Virus record (IMG/VR): IMGVR_UViG_3300022213_000011
Span: 1-45,986 of that record
Direction: 5' to 3' (one strand)
DNA: 45,986 nucleotides
Source: a virus
Made by a program: the position numbers and the translations under genes. The notes beneath the pieces are model-generated. The model did not search any database. It saw nothing but the letters and a program-made list of their open reading frames with translations, and was not told the DNA's origin. Below are positions 27,842-45,986 of this stretch, piece by piece; the first letter of the stretch is position 1; each line of letters opens with the position of its first letter.

Positions 27842-27870
27842 TTGACGTTGCCGGACAGCGGTGCCATACT
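27842..27870 (+). promoter_or_regulatory. Sigma70-type early promoter giving a leaderless message
   Basis: TTGACG (27842-27847), a 17-base spacer and CATACT (27865-27870) form a good -35/-10 pair. Transcription would start about seven bases later, at or next to ATG 27878, so the HTH gene would be translated from a leaderless or nearly leaderless mRNA. It stands at the head of the early gene block. Confidence 0.72.
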
Positions 27871-27877
27871 GGCCAAC

Positions 27878-28099
27878 ATGGACACCACGGACAACGCGGA
27901 CAACGGGGCGATGCGGTTCGATGCGACCGCGGCCGACGTGGCTAAGAAGTACGGCGTGACGGCGAGGAGCGTGCGCCGTTGGTGCGAAATGACGGAGATC
28001 CCGCACCGATGGACCCCTGGCGGGCCCCGGTTCAACCTCGAGCAAGTCGACGCATGGATGATGCAGAAACGCGCCGAGCTCGCCGCGGCGAGGACGTGA
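27878..28099 (+). CDS. HTH DNA-binding protein, MerR/excisionase type
   Basis: The 73-residue protein has an HTH core FDATAADVAKKYGVTARSVRRW (about residues 14-35), then PHRWTPGGPRFNLEQVDAWM, the layout of small MerR-like or excisionase-like winged helices. I chose ATG 27878 because the promoter at 27842-27870 would start transcription there; the frame is open upstream to 27767 but lacks coding character. As first gene of the early block it may regulate it. Confidence 0.75.
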   Translation: MDTTDNADNGAMRFDATAADVAKKYGVTARSVRRWCEMTEIPHRWTPGGPRFNLEQVDAWMMQKRAELAAART

Positions 28100-36783: not shown

Positions 36784-36843
36784 TTGCGCACCCGTGAGCT
36801 ATTCACCATTATACCCTCACGGCCCGGGCAATCCCGCCCGGCC
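36784..36843 (+). promoter_or_regulatory. Regulatory module copy A: promoter, dyad operator, leader hairpin
   Basis: TTGCGC (36784-36789), 17 bases, CATTAT (36807-36812). The spacer holds the dyad GTGA-GCTAT-TCAC (36794-36806). The leader contains a GC-rich hairpin at 36821-36843 (GGCCCGGGC with GCCCGGCC, one bulge). A strong ribosome site precedes ATG 36861. The same arrangement recurs at 37703, 38872 and 39410. Confidence 0.82.
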
Positions 36844-36860
36844 AGAAAGGGGAGGCCAGG

Positions 36861-37184
36861 ATGGCCAGCAAGAACGAGGGGTTCCAGGCGGTGCGCACGA
36901 TGCCTCGGCGGGAGCTGGGGTGGCAGGTCCAGGCGAACGAGCGCCTCGAGCGCTTCACGCGGTTCGCCGCCGAGCTCCTCGAGCCGTTCCCGGATCACAC
37001 GTACGAGCGCCGGCAAGTCATCGCGAGTCTCGCGCGCTACGTGCTCGCGCTCGGGCTCGACGGGGCGTACGACGGGCACACGTTCGAGGACTTCGGCGAG
37101 ATCGTCGAGGACGCACGCGAGCGCGGGCTCATCAGCTCGGACACCTACGACGCGATTTGCCGCTGGCTCGCGGAGGTGGTCTGA
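36861..37184 (+). CDS. Hypothetical early protein under module A
   Basis: A 107-residue helical protein (WQVQANERLERFTRFAAELL, YERRQVIASLARYVLALG, YDAICRWLAEVV) with a strong ribosome site supplied by the repeated module. Not recognised. Two bases after its stop the next gene starts. Confidence 0.65.
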   Translation: MASKNEGFQAVRTMPRRELGWQVQANERLERFTRFAAELLEPFPDHTYERRQVIASLARYVLALGLDGAYDGHTFEDFGEIVEDARERGLISSDTYDAICRWLAEVV

Positions 37185-37186
37185 CC

Positions 37187-37495
37187 ATGGCCATCGCGAA
37201 CGGAACCGAGCAAGTGCTCACCGAGATCGCCGACGGCGTGCTCCTCCTCGCCGGCGTCGAGGTCGACGATCTCCACCGCGCGCGGCTCTACAAGCTCGCC
37301 GGCCTCCTCCTCGAGCTCGCCGCGGAGGAGGCGCTCGAGGGGTCCATCGAGCCGGGCTCGGCGACGCTCTCGCGCGTCGCCGAGGAGCTCCAGGAGGCCT
37401 ACGCGTGCGGCCCTGTCGGCGTGGAATTATGGGAGCGCTTCGAGACTTGGGTCGGCGAGGTGCCGGCGCGCGCGGAGGCCTTGTGGGGTCTCTGA
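37187..37495 (+). CDS. Hypothetical helical protein
   Basis: A 102-residue, Leu/Ala/Glu-rich helical protein (VLTEIADGVLLLAGVEVDDL, YKLAGLLLELAAEEALEGS, VGVELWERFETWVGEVP). ATG 37187 sits in TGACCATGG, the same junction wording as at 39226, suggesting both arose by copying of the module-plus-gene unit. Function unknown. Confidence 0.62.
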   Translation: MAIANGTEQVLTEIADGVLLLAGVEVDDLHRARLYKLAGLLLELAAEEALEGSIEPGSATLSRVAEELQEAYACGPVGVELWERFETWVGEVPARAEALWGL

Positions 37496-37680
37496 CGCGC
37501 GCCGAGCAGGTCGCGCTCCTCGAGCGGCGGATCGCCGAGTCGGGCCTCTCGGCCCGGCGGTTCGCTGTCGAAGTGCTCACGCGCGACGAACGCACGATCC
37601 GCCGGTGGCTCGCCGGCGACCAGATACCGCAGGTCGTTCTCGACTTCCTCGAGGACCCGCAACCCGCCCCGTGGCCGTGA
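37483..37680 (+). CDS. Small HTH regulator
   Basis: A 65-residue protein from GTG 37483, overlapping the previous gene by 13 bases. AEQVALLERRIAESGLSARR and the following FAVEVLTRDERTIRRWLAGD form a Cro/XRE-type helix-turn-helix with a recognition helix DERTIRRWLAG. It lies 23 bases before module B and is a natural candidate to bind the GTGA-N5-TCAC operators; that is inference. Confidence 0.62.
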   Translation: MGSLTRAEQVALLERRIAESGLSARRFAVEVLTRDERTIRRWLAGDQIPQVVLDFLEDPQPAPWP

Positions 37681-37702
37681 CACCCGGGACCCGCCGGGGG
37701 CC

Positions 37703-37762
37703 TTGCGCGCCCGTGATAGATTCACCATCATACCTCCACGGCCCGGGCAATCCCGCCCGGCC
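37703..37762 (+). promoter_or_regulatory. Regulatory module copy B
   Basis: TTGCGC (37703-37708), 17 bases, CATCAT (37726-37731). The dyad here reads GTGA-TAGAT-TCAC (37713-37725), with a changed centre but identical arms to copy A. The leader hairpin (37740-37762) is identical. ATG 37780 follows. Confidence 0.8.
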
Positions 37763-37779
37763 GAACAGAGGGGCAGAAC

Positions 37780-38124
37780 ATGGCGACCTTCCGGATCTAC
37801 TACTCGCGGCCCGAAGCTTTCCGGGACCTTTCGCTCGGGTTCGAGTTCGCGGCGAAGTACGGCGTGACGGTCACGGCGGCGACGCTCGATCGCACGCACG
37901 TCTTTCTCCGCGAGATCGAGGCGGCCGACCTCCACGAGGTCTACCGCGTGTCGCAGGGCGAGATTTGGAGTCCGAACGGCGAGGCGCGCGAGCTCATCCG
38001 CTCCAAGGGCCTCGCGCACACGTCGATGTCCGTCGGCGACGTGATCGTCGACGCGGCCGGCGTCGCGCACATGGTCGAAATGGTGGGCTTTCTTCCCCTC
38101 CCGGCTCGGGAGGGCGCGCTGTGA
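37780..38124 (+). CDS. Conserved phage/plasmid protein of unknown function
   Basis: The 114-residue protein contains THVFLREIEAADLHEVYRVS, QGEIWSPNGEARELIRSKGL and HTSMSVGDVIVDAAG, wording I associate with a widespread uncharacterised family of phages and plasmids. It is likely a small alpha/beta protein. Its GTG/TGA junction couples it to the TGT-like gene, which may indicate joint function. Confidence 0.65.
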   Translation: MATFRIYYSRPEAFRDLSLGFEFAAKYGVTVTAATLDRTHVFLREIEAADLHEVYRVSQGEIWSPNGEARELIRSKGLAHTSMSVGDVIVDAAGVAHMVEMVGFLPLPAREGAL

Positions 38125-38849
38125 TCTACCTCGTCGGCGAAATGTCGAACGGCTCGGCGAAGCTCGCCGACACCTACCCGCGCGGGATCGGCCGGTGCTA
38201 CGTCGAGCGCCCGCTCGAGCCGTTCCCGGGCGAGCCGTGGATCCTCGACAACGGCGTTTTCCGCGCGTGGAACGCCGCGGGCCGCGACCCTTCGATCGAC
38301 TACGCGGACTGCTACGCCGCGTTCGAGGCGCGCCTCGAGAACGTCGCCGAGCTCGTCCGCGAGGACCGCGGGCCTCTGTTCGTCGTCGTGCCGGATCGGC
38401 CCGCGGACCCGTCCTCGTTCTGGACGTCGCTCGCGTGGCTCGACGACTACGAGCAGGAGCGCCAGGAAGAGCTCGATCCGAGCGGGTGGTACCACGGCGC
38501 GCGCATGATCCCGCTTTTCCTCGCGGTGCAGAACGGCATGACGCCGGAGCTCCTCGAGGCGGAGCGGTGCGCCGAGACGGACCGCCCGCTCCTCGAGCGG
38601 GTCGACGGGCTCTTCCTCGGCGGCACGGACGAGTTCAAGGCCGACACGCTCGACGCGTGGCGCGAGCTCGCCGACCGCCACGGCCTCCGGTTGCACTTCG
38701 GCCGGTGCACTCAGAGCAGGATCGCCGCGGCGCTCGAGGCCGGATGCGACTCCGCCGACTCCTCGCACCCGAACCGCCTCGGCGGCGAGCGGTGGGCCCG
38801 GTTCCTCGAGGCCTTCGACGCGGTCCAGGCCGCCAGGTCCGTCGCGTGA
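38121..38849 (+). CDS. TGT/DpdA-like TIM-barrel protein, possible base-exchange enzyme
   Basis: The 242-residue protein shows, in order, motifs matching tRNA-guanine transglycosylases: ILDNGVFRAW (compare DSGGF), LFVVVPDRP, PLFLAVQNGM (compare IVQGG), GLFLGGTDEFK (compare GGL), and LHFGRCTQSRIAAALEAGCD followed by SADSS. Phage DpdA proteins of this superfamily exchange guanine in DNA for a 7-deazaguanine. The protein is shorter than bacterial TGT (about 370). No FolE, QueD, QueE or QueC genes are present, so the base would come from the host. Start GTG 38121 overlaps the upstream stop. Confidence 0.6.
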   Translation: MIYLVGEMSNGSAKLADTYPRGIGRCYVERPLEPFPGEPWILDNGVFRAWNAAGRDPSIDYADCYAAFEARLENVAELVREDRGPLFVVVPDRPADPSSFWTSLAWLDDYEQERQEELDPSGWYHGARMIPLFLAVQNGMTPELLEAERCAETDRPLLERVDGLFLGGTDEFKADTLDAWRELADRHGLRLHFGRCTQSRIAAALEAGCDSADSSHPNRLGGERWARFLEAFDAVQAARSVA

Positions 38850-38871
38850 CGCCGGACGTCCTACTCCCCCC

Positions 38872-38931
38872 TTGCGCGTCCGTGAGCTATTCACCAATAT
38901 ACCCTCACGGCCCGGGCAATCCCGCCCGGCC
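38872..38931 (+). promoter_or_regulatory. Regulatory module copy C
   Basis: TTGCGC (38872-38877), 17 bases, CAATAT (38895-38900). Dyad GTGA-GCTAT-TCAC at 38882-38894 as in copy A; the leader hairpin at 38909-38931 is unchanged. ATG 38948 follows after an AAAAGGG ribosome region. Confidence 0.8.
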
Positions 38932-38947
38932 AGAAAAGGGTGCCACG

Positions 38948-39223
38948 ATGTCGACTTCCCGCTTCGCAGTCACGAACGACGCCGCTTTCATCGCCCGCGT
39001 TTCCAGCTTCAACCGCCGCGCCGAGTCGAAACTCCGCCGCTCGCTCTTCGCCGCGACCAAGGCGAACGCCGGCACGCCGTCGGAGCACTTCCGGTTCACG
39101 TTCGCGCCCGGCGTCGACGCGGCGACGGTCAACGAGCGGCTCGAGCGGCTCGTCGCCGCCGGCGCGGCCGCCCACCAGGTCGAGCTCCCGGGCGAGCTCG
39201 GCGCCGTGGCGGAGGTTCGCTGA
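38948..39223 (+). CDS. Small hypothetical protein under module C
   Basis: A 91-residue protein (NDAAFIARVSSFNRRAESKL, RRSLFAATKANAGTPSEHFR, ATVNERLERLVAAGAAAHQV). Basic N-terminal half, helical C-terminal half. Not recognised. Confidence 0.6.
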   Translation: MSTSRFAVTNDAAFIARVSSFNRRAESKLRRSLFAATKANAGTPSEHFRFTFAPGVDAATVNERLERLVAAGAAAHQVELPGELGAVAEVR

Positions 39224-39225
39224 CC

Positions 39226-39987
39226 ATGGCCGCCCGCCTCGCGACGTCCTACCGCGTCGAGAAAACCGCGCGCCCGGTCCACGACCGGGTCGCGCGGGCC
39301 GCGACCACCGAGTCGCACCTCACGGGCCTCCCGCTGGCGGACGTCCTCCTCGAGCGCGAGCGGGTGGCGCGCCTCGAGGAGCTACCGCCCCGGGAGTCGG
39401 CCGGGAGCCTTGCGCGCACAGTGATAGATTCACCATTATACCTCGCGGCCCGGGCAATCCCGCCCGGCCGAACGAAGGGGGAAAAGATGGCGAAGCAACC
39501 CGAGCGGTTCGCGGTGGTCTACCGGACGGGCGGGACGGCGCGGTTCAAGTGGAACCGCCTCTTCCGGGACTTCACCACGCGCGAGGTCGCGGACGCGGCG
39601 AAGGCCGAGCTCGAGCGCCAGGGCTACGCGGCCCACGTGCACGACGCCGCCCTCCTGGACGCGATAGGCCTCCCCGAGACGTACGGCGGGGGGGTCGGCC
39701 TCGAGGGCGTCCGGATCTACAACCGCGGCGACGTGGCCAACCACCCGCACTTCGGTATCGTCACGAAGGACGACGGCCAGAACGTGTGGGTCCAGGTCGA
39801 CTTCGACGCCGAGGACGAGGCGCCGGGCGAGACGTACGCGGTCGCGCGCTCCATGGTGGAGCACGTCGACGACGGGTACGCCCGGATCGTCACCGTTGCC
39901 GCCTACCTCGAGCGCCGCGAGCGCCGCGAGCGCCGCACCGCGGACATCGCGCGCCGGAAGGCGCTCGAGACCGGGAGGGGCGCTTGA
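39226..39987 (+). CDS. Readthrough frame: small ORF fused in frame through module D to the next gene
   Basis: ATG 39226 starts a frame (ARLATSYRVEKTARPVHDRV, LADVLLERERVARLEEL) that meets no stop before module D. It is translated through the promoter DNA (VIDSPLYLAARAIPPGR) and continues into the gene at 39487, giving a possible 253-residue fusion. The start repeats the TGACCATGG junction of 37187. Either the original stop was lost, or two products are made: a long one from upstream transcripts and a short one from module D. Confidence 0.5.
   Translation: MAARLATSYRVEKTARPVHDRVARAATTESHLTGLPLADVLLERERVARLEELPPRESAGSLARTVIDSPLYLAARAIPPGRTKGEKMAKQPERFAVVYRTGGTARFKWNRLFRDFTTREVADAAKAELERQGYAAHVHDAALLDAIGLPETYGGGVGLEGVRIYNRGDVANHPHFGIVTKDDGQNVWVQVDFDAEDEAPGETYAVARSMVEHVDDGYARIVTVAAYLERRERRERRTADIARRKALETGRGA
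39410..39471 (+). promoter_or_regulatory. Regulatory module copy D, inside an open frame
   Basis: TTGCGC (39410-39415), an 18-base spacer (one longer than other copies), CATTAT (39434-39439). Dyad GTGA-TAGAT-TCAC at 39421-39433 as in copy B. The hairpin GGCCCGGGC/GCCCGGCC follows (about 39447-39469). ATG 39487 is its gene start. Confidence 0.78.
39487..39987 (+). CDS. Hypothetical protein under module D
   Basis: The 166-residue product (RFAVVYRTGGTARFKWNRLF, AAKAELERQGYAAHVHDAAL, then GVRIYNRGDVANHPHFGIVT and QVDFDAEDEAPGET) resembles widespread phage small proteins that begin RFAVVYRTGGT, of unknown role. The ending is very basic (ERRERRERRTADIARRKA). A GGGGGAAAAG ribosome site precedes ATG 39487, supporting independent translation. 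Confidence 0.65.
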   Translation: MAKQPERFAVVYRTGGTARFKWNRLFRDFTTREVADAAKAELERQGYAAHVHDAALLDAIGLPETYGGGVGLEGVRIYNRGDVANHPHFGIVTKDDGQNVWVQVDFDAEDEAPGETYAVARSMVEHVDDGYARIVTVAAYLERRERRERRTADIARRKALETGRGA

Positions 39988-40379
39988 GCTCCGAGGCCTA
40001 CCGCGACCACGCCGGTCGCACGACCCCGCCGAGCTCGTGGGGGCCCGGGCTCGCCTACCTCGGCAACCTCGGCCGCGGCCGCGTGTGCACCGATCACCGC
40101 GGCGCGCGCCTCAAGGTTCTCGCGCAGAACGTCGGGAGCACGACGGTCCGGCGCTCCGGATCGGCCGCTCGCACGTTCACACGCGCGGACGGTTCGGTCG
40201 CTCAGCTCGGGCCGACGTCGGAGGAGATCACGCTCGCGCGCGGCACGGTGGTCCGCGTTCGTACTTCCACGGTCTCGTGCGCAGTATGCGCGGCCCACTA
40301 CGGCGACGCGGAGCCGTGCGACGAGGGGAAGCCGGTCAATTCGCCGCACCGGGCCACGGTTTCCTTGGGGGCGGCATGA
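39984..40379 (+). CDS. Hypothetical Cys-containing protein upstream of the Mom-like gene
   Basis: A 131-residue protein from TTG 39984 (four-base overlap). The C-terminal part has TVSCAVCAAHYGDAEPCDEG with three Cys (C-x2-C...C). Beta-rich middle (VGSTTVRRSGSAARTFTRAD, TLARGTVVRVRTST-type text). Its TGA overlaps the ATG of the Mom-like gene. In Mu a small zinc protein, Com, is coupled to mom; similarity here is positional only. Confidence 0.55.
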   Translation: MSSEAYRDHAGRTTPPSSWGPGLAYLGNLGRGRVCTDHRGARLKVLAQNVGSTTVRRSGSAARTFTRADGSVAQLGPTSEEITLARGTVVRVRTSTVSCAVCAAHYGDAEPCDEGKPVNSPHRATVSLGAA

Positions 40380-41167
40380 TCGGCGTGCAACGCTGGCGCG
40401 AGCGCCGCGACTCCTACCGGCCCGCCGGCGAGCGGATCCGCCCCGAGCTCTTCGACGTCGCGCCGATCTCGAGCGACCTCGTGGCGCGCGCGTTCGTCCA
40501 AGAGCACCACTACTCCGGGACCTACCCGGCCGCGCGGTTCCGCGTCGGGCTCTACCGCGGCGGCGAGCTCGTCGGCGTCGCCGTGTTCTCGCACCCGTGC
40601 AGTAACCGCGTTCTGACGAACGTGTTCACGTCCACGCCGGCGCTCGAGGCCGTGGAGCTCGGCCGGTTCGTGCTCCTCGACGAGGTCCCGGGCAACGGCG
40701 AGACGTGGTTCCTCGCGCGGGCGTTCGACCTCCTCCGCGCCGAGGGGATCCGGGGCGTAGTCTCGTTCTCGGATCCGACGCCGCGGACCAACGCCGCGGG
40801 CCGGGTCATCTTCCCGGGCCACGTCGGCACGATCTACCAGGCGCACAACGCACGATTCCTCGGCCGCGGCGACGCGCGGACGCTCAAGCTCCTCCCGGAC
40901 GGGCGCGTGTTCTCCAACCGCGCGGAACAGAAGATCCGCGCGGGCTCGCGCGGGTGGCGCTACGCGAGCGACCAGCTCGTCGCGCACGGCGCGGGCGTTC
41001 TCGAGGAGGGCGCCGACCGGGAGGCGCGCCTCGCGTGGCTCGAGCGCTGGACGGGGGCGTTGACGCGCCCGCTCCGGCACCCCGGCAACCTTCGGTACGC
41101 GTGGCCGCTCCGGAAGTCCGTGGCGCTCGCGACCGGCACCCCATACCCGAAGAGGCAAGCCGCATGA
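40376..41167 (+). CDS. Mom-like DNA modification protein (GNAT-type fold)
   Basis: The 263-residue protein carries AFVQEHHYSGTYPAARFRVG, LVGVAVFSHPCSNRVL, AVELGRFVLLDEVPGNGETW (ELGRF, then Asn/Glu-Thr), VVSFSDPTPRTNAAGRVIFP and GTIYQAHNARFLGRG. This layout matches the Mom family of acyltransferase-like phage proteins, which convert adenine to N6-carbamoylmethyladenine and protect phage DNA from restriction. ATG 40376 overlaps the upstream stop. Modification of this genome is predicted, not shown. Confidence 0.75.
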   Translation: MIGVQRWRERRDSYRPAGERIRPELFDVAPISSDLVARAFVQEHHYSGTYPAARFRVGLYRGGELVGVAVFSHPCSNRVLTNVFTSTPALEAVELGRFVLLDEVPGNGETWFLARAFDLLRAEGIRGVVSFSDPTPRTNAAGRVIFPGHVGTIYQAHNARFLGRGDARTLKLLPDGRVFSNRAEQKIRAGSRGWRYASDQLVAHGAGVLEEGADREARLAWLERWTGALTRPLRHPGNLRYAWPLRKSVALATGTPYPKRQAA

Positions 41168-41409
41168 CACACGAAGAGCTCAAGGCCCGCCGGGCCCGGC
41201 TCGAGCTGAGCCAAGGTACCCTCGCCAAGCGGCTCGGCGTCGACCGCTCCTACATCGCGCACGCGGAGAACGACGAGGGATTCGCGCGCCCGTGGTACCA
41301 CCTCGCGCTCCTCGCGATCGAGTACGAGGAGCGCCTCGTGCCGCTCCCCCGCAAGTGGACGAAGCCGGCGTGCCGCAGAGGGGGACGAGTCAAGAGGATG
41401 TCAACGTGA
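41164..41409 (+). CDS. XRE-family HTH regulator
   Basis: The 81-residue protein has a classic Cro/CI-type HTH: LKARRARLELSQGTLAKRLG then VDRSYIAHAENDEG, followed by a short helix and a basic tail (RKWTKPACRRGGRVKR). It is the second small HTH of the block and is coupled by ATGA to the Mom-like gene. It might control the four GTGA-N5-TCAC operators or mom timing; target not shown. Confidence 0.78.
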   Translation: MTHEELKARRARLELSQGTLAKRLGVDRSYIAHAENDEGFARPWYHLALLAIEYEERLVPLPRKWTKPACRRGGRVKRMST

Positions 41410-45296: not shown

Positions 45297-45986
45297 ATGT
45301 CGCGCGGGCGCGTCGCTGTCGCGCACCGGCGACGCTTCAACGGAGACCCGGAGAACGTGAGCAAAGGCACCCGCACATATCGACGGATCGCGACGACGTT
45401 TTGGAACGATCCAGACCTCCGCCGGCGAGGGATCACAGGGGACCAACGGCTCCTCCTCCTGTACTACTTCACGGGCCCGCGGACGAACCTCGCGGGGCTC
45501 TATTGGCTCCCGCTCACGTACGCCGCCCAAGAGACCGACCTACCCCTCGAGGACGTCCGGCGGTGGACCCTCGGCGAGCTCGCGCCGTACGTGTCCTACG
45601 ACGTCGAGACCGAGGAGATCCTCGTCCACCGGCTCGCGTTTCACAACATCGGCGACGACCTCAAGGCGCGCGACAAACGACTCCAACCGATCGCGCGGAA
45701 CCTCTCCGACGCACACTCCGCGGAGCTCCTCGCGAAGTGGTTCGAGCTCTACCCGGCGTGGCCGATCGACCCCGAGACTATGGCGCCAATCCTCGATCCT
45801 GAAGGGGCAGGGGTAAGGGGCAGGGGTAAGGGGCATACCAAGGGGCATCCGAAGGGGCATACCAAGGGGCTACCCCAAGGGGCTACCCCAAGGGGCAGGG
45901 GTAAGGGGCAGGGGGAAGCCATAGCAGTAGCAGGTGCAGTAGCAGTAGCAGTAGCAGGGGCAGGGACAGAGACAGAGAGACAGAGC
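45297..45986 (+). CDS. Replication initiator, 5' part (continues at base 1 to 659)
   Basis: From ATG 45297 the protein has a helical winged-helix-like N-terminal domain: RTYRRIATTFWNDPDLRRRG, GDQRLLLLYYFTGPRTNLAG, LYWLPLTYAAQETDLPLEDV. This is the pattern of phage replisome organisers and DnaD-like initiators. VSYDVETEEILVHRLAFHNI follows. At about residue 168 the frame enters the iteron array and becomes Gly/Lys/Arg-rich. It stays open to the window end and, after removing the repeated 155 bases, continues to 659 (397 residues in all). No helicase or primase gene accompanies it, so it probably recruits host replication proteins. Confidence 0.85.
   Translation, partial: MSRGRVAVAHRRRFNGDPENVSKGTRTYRRIATTFWNDPDLRRRGITGDQRLLLLYYFTGPRTNLAGLYWLPLTYAAQETDLPLEDVRRWTLGELAPYVSYDVETEEILVHRLAFHNIGDDLKARDKRLQPIARNLSDAHSAELLAKWFELYPAWPIDPETMAPILDPEGAGVRGRGKGHTKGHPKGHTKGLPQGATPRGRGKGQGEAIAVAGAVAVAVAGAGTETERQS
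45802..45915 (+). repeat. Nine iterons inside the initiator gene, candidate origin
   Basis: Nine units of 12 or 13 bases begin with AAGGGGC: AAGGGGCAGGGGT twice, AAGGGGCATACC, AAGGGGCATCCG, AAGGGGCATACC, AAGGGGCTACCCC twice, AAGGGGCAGGGGT and AAGGGGCAGGGGG. Because 13 is not a multiple of three, the peptide changes from unit to unit while the DNA unit is kept, which points to selection on DNA. Lambda has its origin iterons inside gene O in the same way. Seven of the units are also visible in whole or part at bases 1-84. Confidence 0.75.
45832..45986. repeat. Right copy of the terminal direct repeat
   Basis: Matches 1-161 with one GCAGTA hexamer fewer. It covers iterons 3-9, the GCAGTA repeats and the ACAGAG repeats. 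Together with the continuous reading frame this shows that the contig closes on itself. Confidence 0.93.

Follow-up and report, generated by a model that had tools for sequence, protein, structure and literature searches.

Repeated promoter-operator-leader modules before small genes of an uncultivated phage, and a candidate helix-turn-helix repressor

The DNA considered here is the IMG/VR virus record IMGVR_UViG_3300022213_000011, analysed over its full length of 45,986 bp (hereafter the window), and the question it raises is what four copies of one regulatory sequence do within a single phage genome, and what reads them. The first-pass annotation had described these copies as four cassettes at 36784, 37703, 38872 and 39410, each with a promoter, a dyad between the -35 and -10 hexamers, a GC hairpin and a ribosome site, and all four are present at those positions. 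We consider it probable, at odds of roughly two in three, that the modules are copies of one promoter-operator-leader cassette of the host sigma70 type, whose spacer dyad would be the target of repression by a small helix-turn-helix (HTH) protein of the same regulon. This view is built on sequence comparison among phages, which brings out the promoter layout, the operator geometry, the co-occurrence with an HTH gene and the covariation of the hairpin stem; the switch looks like a shared means of silencing helper genes once they have been briefly and strongly expressed.

Module layout in the window and in other phages

The modules lie on the + strand and follow one consensus: TTGCGC is separated by 4-5 nt from the 13-bp dyad GTGA-N5-TCAC, to which CANNAT and ACC are joined, and after a short gap come a 23-nt hairpin, a ribosome site and ATG. 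In module A (36784-36860) the -35 hexamer TTGCGC (36784-36789) precedes the dyad GTGAGCTATTCAC (36794-36806), the -10 hexamer CATTAT (36807-36812), the hairpin (36821-36843), the Shine-Dalgarno (SD) sequence GGGGAGG and the ATG at 36861. Module B (37703-37779) has its -35 at 37703-37708, the dyad GTGATAGATTCAC at 37713-37725, the -10 CATCAT at 37726-37731 and the hairpin at 37740-37762, followed by an SD and the ATG at 37780. Module C (38872-38947) again carries GTGAGCTATTCAC (38882-38894), between a -35 at 38872-38877 and the -10 CAATAT at 38895-38900, with the hairpin at 38909-38931, an SD and the ATG at 38948. In module D (39410-39486) one extra base precedes the dyad GTGATAGATTCAC (39421-39433); the -35 is at 39410-39415, the -10 CATTAT at 39434-39439 and the hairpin at 39447-39469, and an SD leads to the ATG at 39487. 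The distance from TTGCGC to CANNAT is accordingly 17, 17, 17 and 18 in modules A to D, and that from hairpin to ATG is 17, 17, 16 and 17 nt.

The pattern TTGCGC-N{3,6}-GTGA-N5-TCAC-CANNATACC has exactly four matches in the window (0.00 in shuffles), and even GTGA-N5-TCAC alone occurs exactly four times in the 46 kb, always inside a module, where 0.41 copies are expected and none of 100 shuffles reaches four. In the module alignment 12 of 63 columns vary, none of them in the dyad arms or the hairpin, and the hairpin (GGCCCGGGCAATCCCGCCCGGCC, 23 nt) is identical in all four copies. This alignment also bears on two further statements of the annotation. The dyad centres do alternate (A and C against B and D), and the alternation is seen in the discriminator too, as well as in the part of the leader that follows the hairpin, i.e. 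A and C, and likewise B and D, are sister copies across the entire module; this pairing supports the proposed spread by duplication. We rejected the idea that the A-B gene block had been duplicated in tandem as a whole, since the genes behind the modules are not homologous; as far as the sequences tell, the modules alone were demonstrably duplicated. Scans of IMG/VR and GTDB with the module pattern yielded no additional copy (two viral matches were AT-rich single sites without a hairpin), and the exact 23-nt hairpin is absent from IMG/VR.

Other phages were reached through IMG/VR homologs of B1, the gene behind module B, and then through the promoters of these homologs. Six records of such phages share the promoter layout but have different arms (TAGGNC-N5-GNCCTA), and the promoters of the B1-homolog phages read, before SD and ATG, either CCTTGCGC-CCTA-GGGC-N5-GCCC-TATAT or TTGAC-N-TAGGNC-N5-GNCCTA-TAT. 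At three loci (L145, L132 and L167) the operon that contains B1 is preceded by TTGCGC-CCTA-GGGC-N5-GCCC-TATAT, after which come a GC hairpin and then a ribosome site. G017, the record of L153, has three modules with TTGACG or TTGCCG, then CCCTA, GGGC-N5-GCCC and ATAT, while TAGGNC-N5-GNCCTA occurs 13 times in G012 (record of L147) and five times in G005 (record of L130), most of these palindromes standing inside a TTGAC- or TTGC-type promoter directly 5' of SD and ATG. The layout in these phages is a -35, a dyad of 13-17 bp and a -10, with arms different from those of the window; counted from the -35, the dyads of the window and its relatives are all centred at one and the same base. The arms differ by group (GTGA/TCAC, GGGC/GCCC, GGCC/GNCC) and are symmetric throughout, the centres being free to vary. 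When only TTGCGC and TATAT were fixed in a search of 20 records, each of the four matches had a dyad, though in one the arms pair imperfectly. A scan for the geometry regardless of the arms, run over all loci in hand and demanding repetition within a locus and a ribosome site after the dyad, returned only the window, G017 and G005.

Repeated promoter or leader modules of their own also stand before small genes in unrelated phages (L019, L018, L009, L044, L050 and L011/L041); those of L019 lie at 2044 and 9563, with a third copy elsewhere in its record, and several of these modules have dyads near the -35 or -10. The promoters of L009, L018, L019, L044 and L050 were set aside as possible kin, as their dyad positions differ and they show no link to an HTH protein of the type discussed below; we regard them as convergent, and such repeats seem to have arisen many times.

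The candidate regulator and its proposed mode of action

Two small HTH proteins of the window had been put forward as regulators. The favoured one, A3 (37483-37680, + strand, 65 aa), is a homolog of the HTH proteins of operator-bearing phages; it matches the L167 protein with 50% identity over 40 aa, and a profile comparison by hhalign gives an E value of 9e-6. The other, D4 (41164-41409, + strand), is an 81-aa XRE-type protein in the operon behind module D, and it resembles the regulator of the relatives over its first 29 residues only. AlphaFold renders the 37483 protein as a compact four-helix HTH (best model at a predicted local distance difference test score, pLDDT, of 87, the other four at 52-62). 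The model is of the HigA/HipB/Aca type of HTH. Its nearest PDB neighbours are two antitoxins, HigA and HipB, together with Aca2/Aca1; no neighbour reaches an E value below 0.1, and the two Aca proteins appear only above E 0.3. It has no match in Pfam or NCBIfam, a sequence search against solved structures found nothing, and it falls in no named Aca family; a match to Aca2_YdiL appears for the HTH of a single relative (E 0.095).

For the counts of operators and HTH genes we used 50 phage records, related or chosen for comparison. HTH homologs occur in 9 of them, the palindrome in 7 and both in 6, a co-occurrence with a Fisher p of 3.5e-5 that is optimistic in that G006, G011, G017 and G023 form one kin group and some of the related records had also served to derive the operator pattern. 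The cleanest independent match is G005, which was used in neither query and has both palindrome and HTH gene. In G012 the palindrome lies immediately 5' of the HTH gene, and 37483 in the window comes third behind module A, so that autoregulation of the HTH gene is likely from its position. The shared layout and this co-occurrence together speak for the first-pass idea that a bound protein would block the promoter. At L137, a small HTH gene directly follows the B1 homolog.

The course of events that we infer, from start sites and binding through repression, the identity of the regulator and timing to the functions of genes and hairpin, would be as follows. Host sigma70 RNA polymerase would read TTGCGC-N17/18-CANNAT on the + strand and start just 5' of the GC hairpin, so that a stem-loop would stand at the 5' end of each mRNA, ahead of the ribosome site. 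A dimeric HTH protein, most likely 37483 of operon A, would bind GTGA-N5-TCAC, which fills the spacer and abuts the -10, and would keep polymerase off the four promoters, among them the one of its own operon. On entry of naked phage DNA all four promoters would fire, the HTH protein would accumulate and shutdown would follow, both of several small genes and of two DNA-modification genes, one TGT-like and one Mom-like. The products of this island (the TGT-like and Mom-like proteins and six small proteins) would be needed early and costly later, as might be expected of a counter-defence island.

Several observations, besides the kinship and the shared records behind the p value, weigh against repression of four sigma70 promoters. 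The homology of 37483 to the HTH family covers a short stretch only. The arms GTGA/TCAC are found in 0 of the 50 comparison records; what other phages have kept, as judged by comparison, is the architecture and not the operator sequence of the window. Moreover, a 4+4 dyad appears anywhere in a segment this short in about 30% of shuffles, and we regard the dyad as convincing through its recurrence in other phages, not through symmetry alone. The forward hexamers are modest or weak by E. coli weights (rank 44-86 of 91,910), and the genome's best -10 hexamers lie on the - strand of the modules. With respect to the leader, its stability as a whole is ordinary for its GC content compared with shuffles of equal composition (z -1.5 to 0), and G012 and G005 have the promoter-operator without the hairpin, which is therefore not an obligatory part.

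Weak hexamers would suit a promoter that needs help, and these, like a dyad placed exactly between the two hexamers, could be taken to mean that the HTH protein activates, realigning the promoter as MerR regulators do. However, promoters of the MerR type have spacers of 19-20 bp whereas those of the modules are 17-18 bp long, G005 and G012 show the same layout with near-consensus TTGAC and TATA, where no activator is needed, and the nearest structural neighbours of the modelled protein (HigA, HipB and Aca1/2) are repressors or antitoxins. Activation appears unlikely to us, and repression by the HTH protein is the reading followed below.

The leader hairpin and the direction of transcription

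None of the 23 positions of the hairpin varies, although other columns of the modules do (p 0.002). It has no T run, leaves the ribosome site uncovered and is missing from the list of a terminator scan; lacking a T run and leaving the site free, it is neither a terminator nor a simple lid on translation. Similar leaders occur elsewhere: in G017 the loop of the module hairpin is AATCCC in two modules, as in the window, and AATCCG in the third, and AATCCC loops on other stems stand 5' of ribosome sites both in G017 and in G002 (L126), where there are 12 distinct places of this kind. In an alignment across phages anchored on the loop, the stems covary (0.42 versus 0.12 in shuffled alignments); since the set was picked by its loop, this figure speaks for the stem, and loop conservation is not measurable from it. 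Rfam gave no match to the window at the gathering threshold or to L126 at E 0.1. By default, the hairpin most likely stabilises or insulates the 5' end of the mRNA, and a factor that reads the loop is possible. A 5'-terminal stem-loop that slows mRNA decay is known for ompA (as cited in PMC3997798).

The invariance of the hairpin, the covarying stems with the AATCCC loop before ribosome sites in G017 and G002, and the fact that G002 has such leaders but no operator would also fit modules that act mainly as RNA, the hairpins serving a translation or antitermination factor and the dyad being incidental or part of the RNA. Against this, the spacer dyad recurs with arms that change symmetrically and tracks the HTH gene, promoter-operators exist without a hairpin in G012 and G005, and no Rfam family matches. 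An action chiefly at the RNA level is doubtful.

The G002 leaders deserve a description of their own. Between 24.5 and 32.2 kb, 12 sites have small genes preceded by an elaborate leader, which runs from GATTGC through a variable first hairpin and a second hairpin with the AATCCC loop to a mini-hairpin TGCC-TAGGAG-GGCA. The mini-hairpin shows the ribosome site in its loop, like the start-associated sequence (SAS) GGGATAGGAGCCC of cluster K mycobacteriophages. The GATTGC of the leader and the GCAATC in its second hairpin are complementary, which makes a pseudoknot or a switch possible.

The direction in which the modules are read needs a comment, as the - strand carries TATAAT (36808-36813), TATGAT (37727-37732), TATATT (38896-38901) and TATAAT (39435-39440), which by -10 score alone rank 1, 2, 3 and 5 of 91,910 positions on both strands. 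Taken at face value, these hexamers would drive antisense or divergent transcription. No -35 is found on the - strand 15-19 nt from them (the best is GGGATT), there is no - strand gene to serve, and every module runs into the SD and ATG of a + strand gene at a constant distance. We take the modules to be read forward because the equivalents in relatives read TTGAC...TATAT on the same strand, and antisense transcription is improbable. The N positions of CANNAT are among the least constrained of the -10 element, and another forward promoter of the same phage, TTGACG-N17-CATACT at 27842, has a -10 that likewise starts with CA.

That the repeats are chiefly homology tracts for cassette shuffling, with regulation secondary, would suit the non-homologous genes behind them and the alternating subtypes (A, B, A, B), but is the least likely of these proposals, as conservation is confined to regulatory elements and other phages keep the same layout with unrelated sequence, which recombination homology does not need.

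The genes behind the modules and comparison with known systems

All genes discussed here are on the + strand. Module A is followed by A1 (36861-37184, 107 aa) and A2 (37187-37495, 102 aa), module C by C1 (38948-39223, 91 aa) and module D by D1 (39487-39987, 166 aa) and D2 (39984-40379, 131 aa), none of which has an assigned family; neither these five genes nor B1 has a function assigned to it. B1 (37780-38124, 114 aa) belongs to an unnamed phage family and is the marker gene of the related modules; it has at least 80 homologs in metagenomic phages of IMG/VR (loci L126-L205) with the motif SPNGEARELI.SKGL.HTSMSVGD, no match in PHROGs, NCBIfam or INPHARED and chance-level matches only in Pfam. 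B2 (38121-38849) is a TGT-like, DpdA-like protein of the queuine tRNA-ribosyltransferase family (PF01702, 3e-6; phrog_15826), and a role in DNA base modification is possible. D3 (40376-41167) is a Mom-like DNA modification protein (PF25680, 5.4e-24; phrog_1384); Mom is an anti-restriction protein in Mu. The two genes lie in one island, and at L006 a homolog of the TGT-like gene stands immediately upstream of mom, which suggests that they are a conserved pair of DNA-modification genes.

The open reading frame after C1 (39226-39987) has no stop before module D and is in frame with D1; module D has one base inserted and one deleted relative to the other modules, and the frame is thereby kept. A fusion of this frame, C2, with D1 (253 aa) is possible, and the open frame through module D may be chance at 69% GC.

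At first sight, the arrangement recalls several known systems. In the promoters of phages or mobile genetic elements that Aca proteins regulate, an inverted repeat lies in the core promoter and the cognate HTH protein represses (PMC9410906; structure of Aca2 in PMC8434428). The window likewise has an inverted repeat within a core phage promoter, a small gene modelled as HTH inside an operon (37483, third behind module A), Aca1/Aca2 among the PDB neighbours of that model, and DNA-modification genes of the counter-restriction type behind its modules. It differs in that no known acr gene was seen, that there are several promoters per genome instead of one, plus a leader hairpin, and that its HTH protein lies outside the named Aca families, with repression as a prediction.

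Cluster K mycobacteriophages have extended SAS (ESAS) elements, intergenic modules of 46-47 bp (seven in Adephagia), in which SigA-like -35 and -10 hexamers spaced 17-18 bp and an inverted repeat lie 5' of a conserved ribosome-site element before non-structural genes, and repression by a regulator not known has been proposed (PMC3203893, PMC11373665). The repeated -35/-10 with 17-18 bp spacing, the inverted repeat, the intergenic position and the small genes that follow are the same in the window. However, the two are not similar in sequence. The SAS spans 13 bp and is located at the ribosome site; in its stead the window has a GC hairpin of 23 nt, which lies upstream of a ribosome site that is not constant, and the SAS matches at none of the four module ribosome sites, which differ among themselves. 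A candidate regulator, moreover, co-occurs with modules of the window type.

In T4-type phages, mobile regulatory cassettes made of an early promoter plus stem-loop (PeSL) are repeated and punctuate blocks of small genes (Arbiol 2010, Comeau 2014, as cited in PMC4503421 and PMC5931544). A repeated promoter with a stem-loop is common to both, yet by title the PeSL is a promoter-terminator composite, while the hairpin of the window lacks a T run and is placed downstream of its promoter. PeSLs are not known to carry an operator. The modules resemble acr-aca, ESAS and PeSL but lack a trait of each, having no named Aca family, no SAS and no terminator; what is new is the module sequence and the candidate regulator, what is known is the principle.

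In archaeal rudiviruses a shared promoter-regulator sequence of the Aca8 type stands before most early small genes, is thought to be repressed by a small HTH protein and has been used to find anti-defence genes (PMC11065993). One common regulatory sequence before small genes and a small HTH candidate repressor are found in the window too; the archaeal promoters are of the B recognition element (BRE)/TATA type and the proteins are unrelated. A shared switch of this kind could serve the same search in phages: a -35 of the TTGCGC or TTGAC type, a -10 and, occupying the spacer between them, GTGA-N5-TCAC or TAGGNC-N5-GNCCTA form a signature which, together with the candidate regulator, defines regulons of small genes of unknown function in uncultivated phages, and the nameless B1 family is a direct target for finding anti-defence genes. 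The operator arms shift while the geometry is fixed, which makes this a tractable case of repressor-operator co-evolution. More tentatively, we speculate that the modules belong to a widespread, hitherto undescribed regulon family with an HTH repressor of changing operator specificity and fixed geometry, in which the AAUCCC loop would be read by a trans factor and which would mark counter-defence islands (B1, A1, A2, C1, D1, D2) beside TGT-like and Mom-like genes.

As regards the genome itself, nearly all genes are on the + strand, with a lambda-like terminase and portal at the left end and small non-structural genes at the right. The ends of the record (1-161 and 45802-45986) share a repeat-rich stretch, apart from a short insertion, and because of this imperfect terminal overlap the window is probably the complete genome of a tailed phage of a high-GC host. 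No close kin was found in IMG/VR, GTDB genomes or INPHARED; searches with Mom and terminase homologs gave none either (best terminase 54%), and INPHARED holds no DNA related to the window. The forward promoter mentioned above (TTGACG-N17-CATACT, 27842-27880) lies a few bases 5' of the ATG (27878) of an excisionase-like HTH gene, whose mRNA is likely leaderless.

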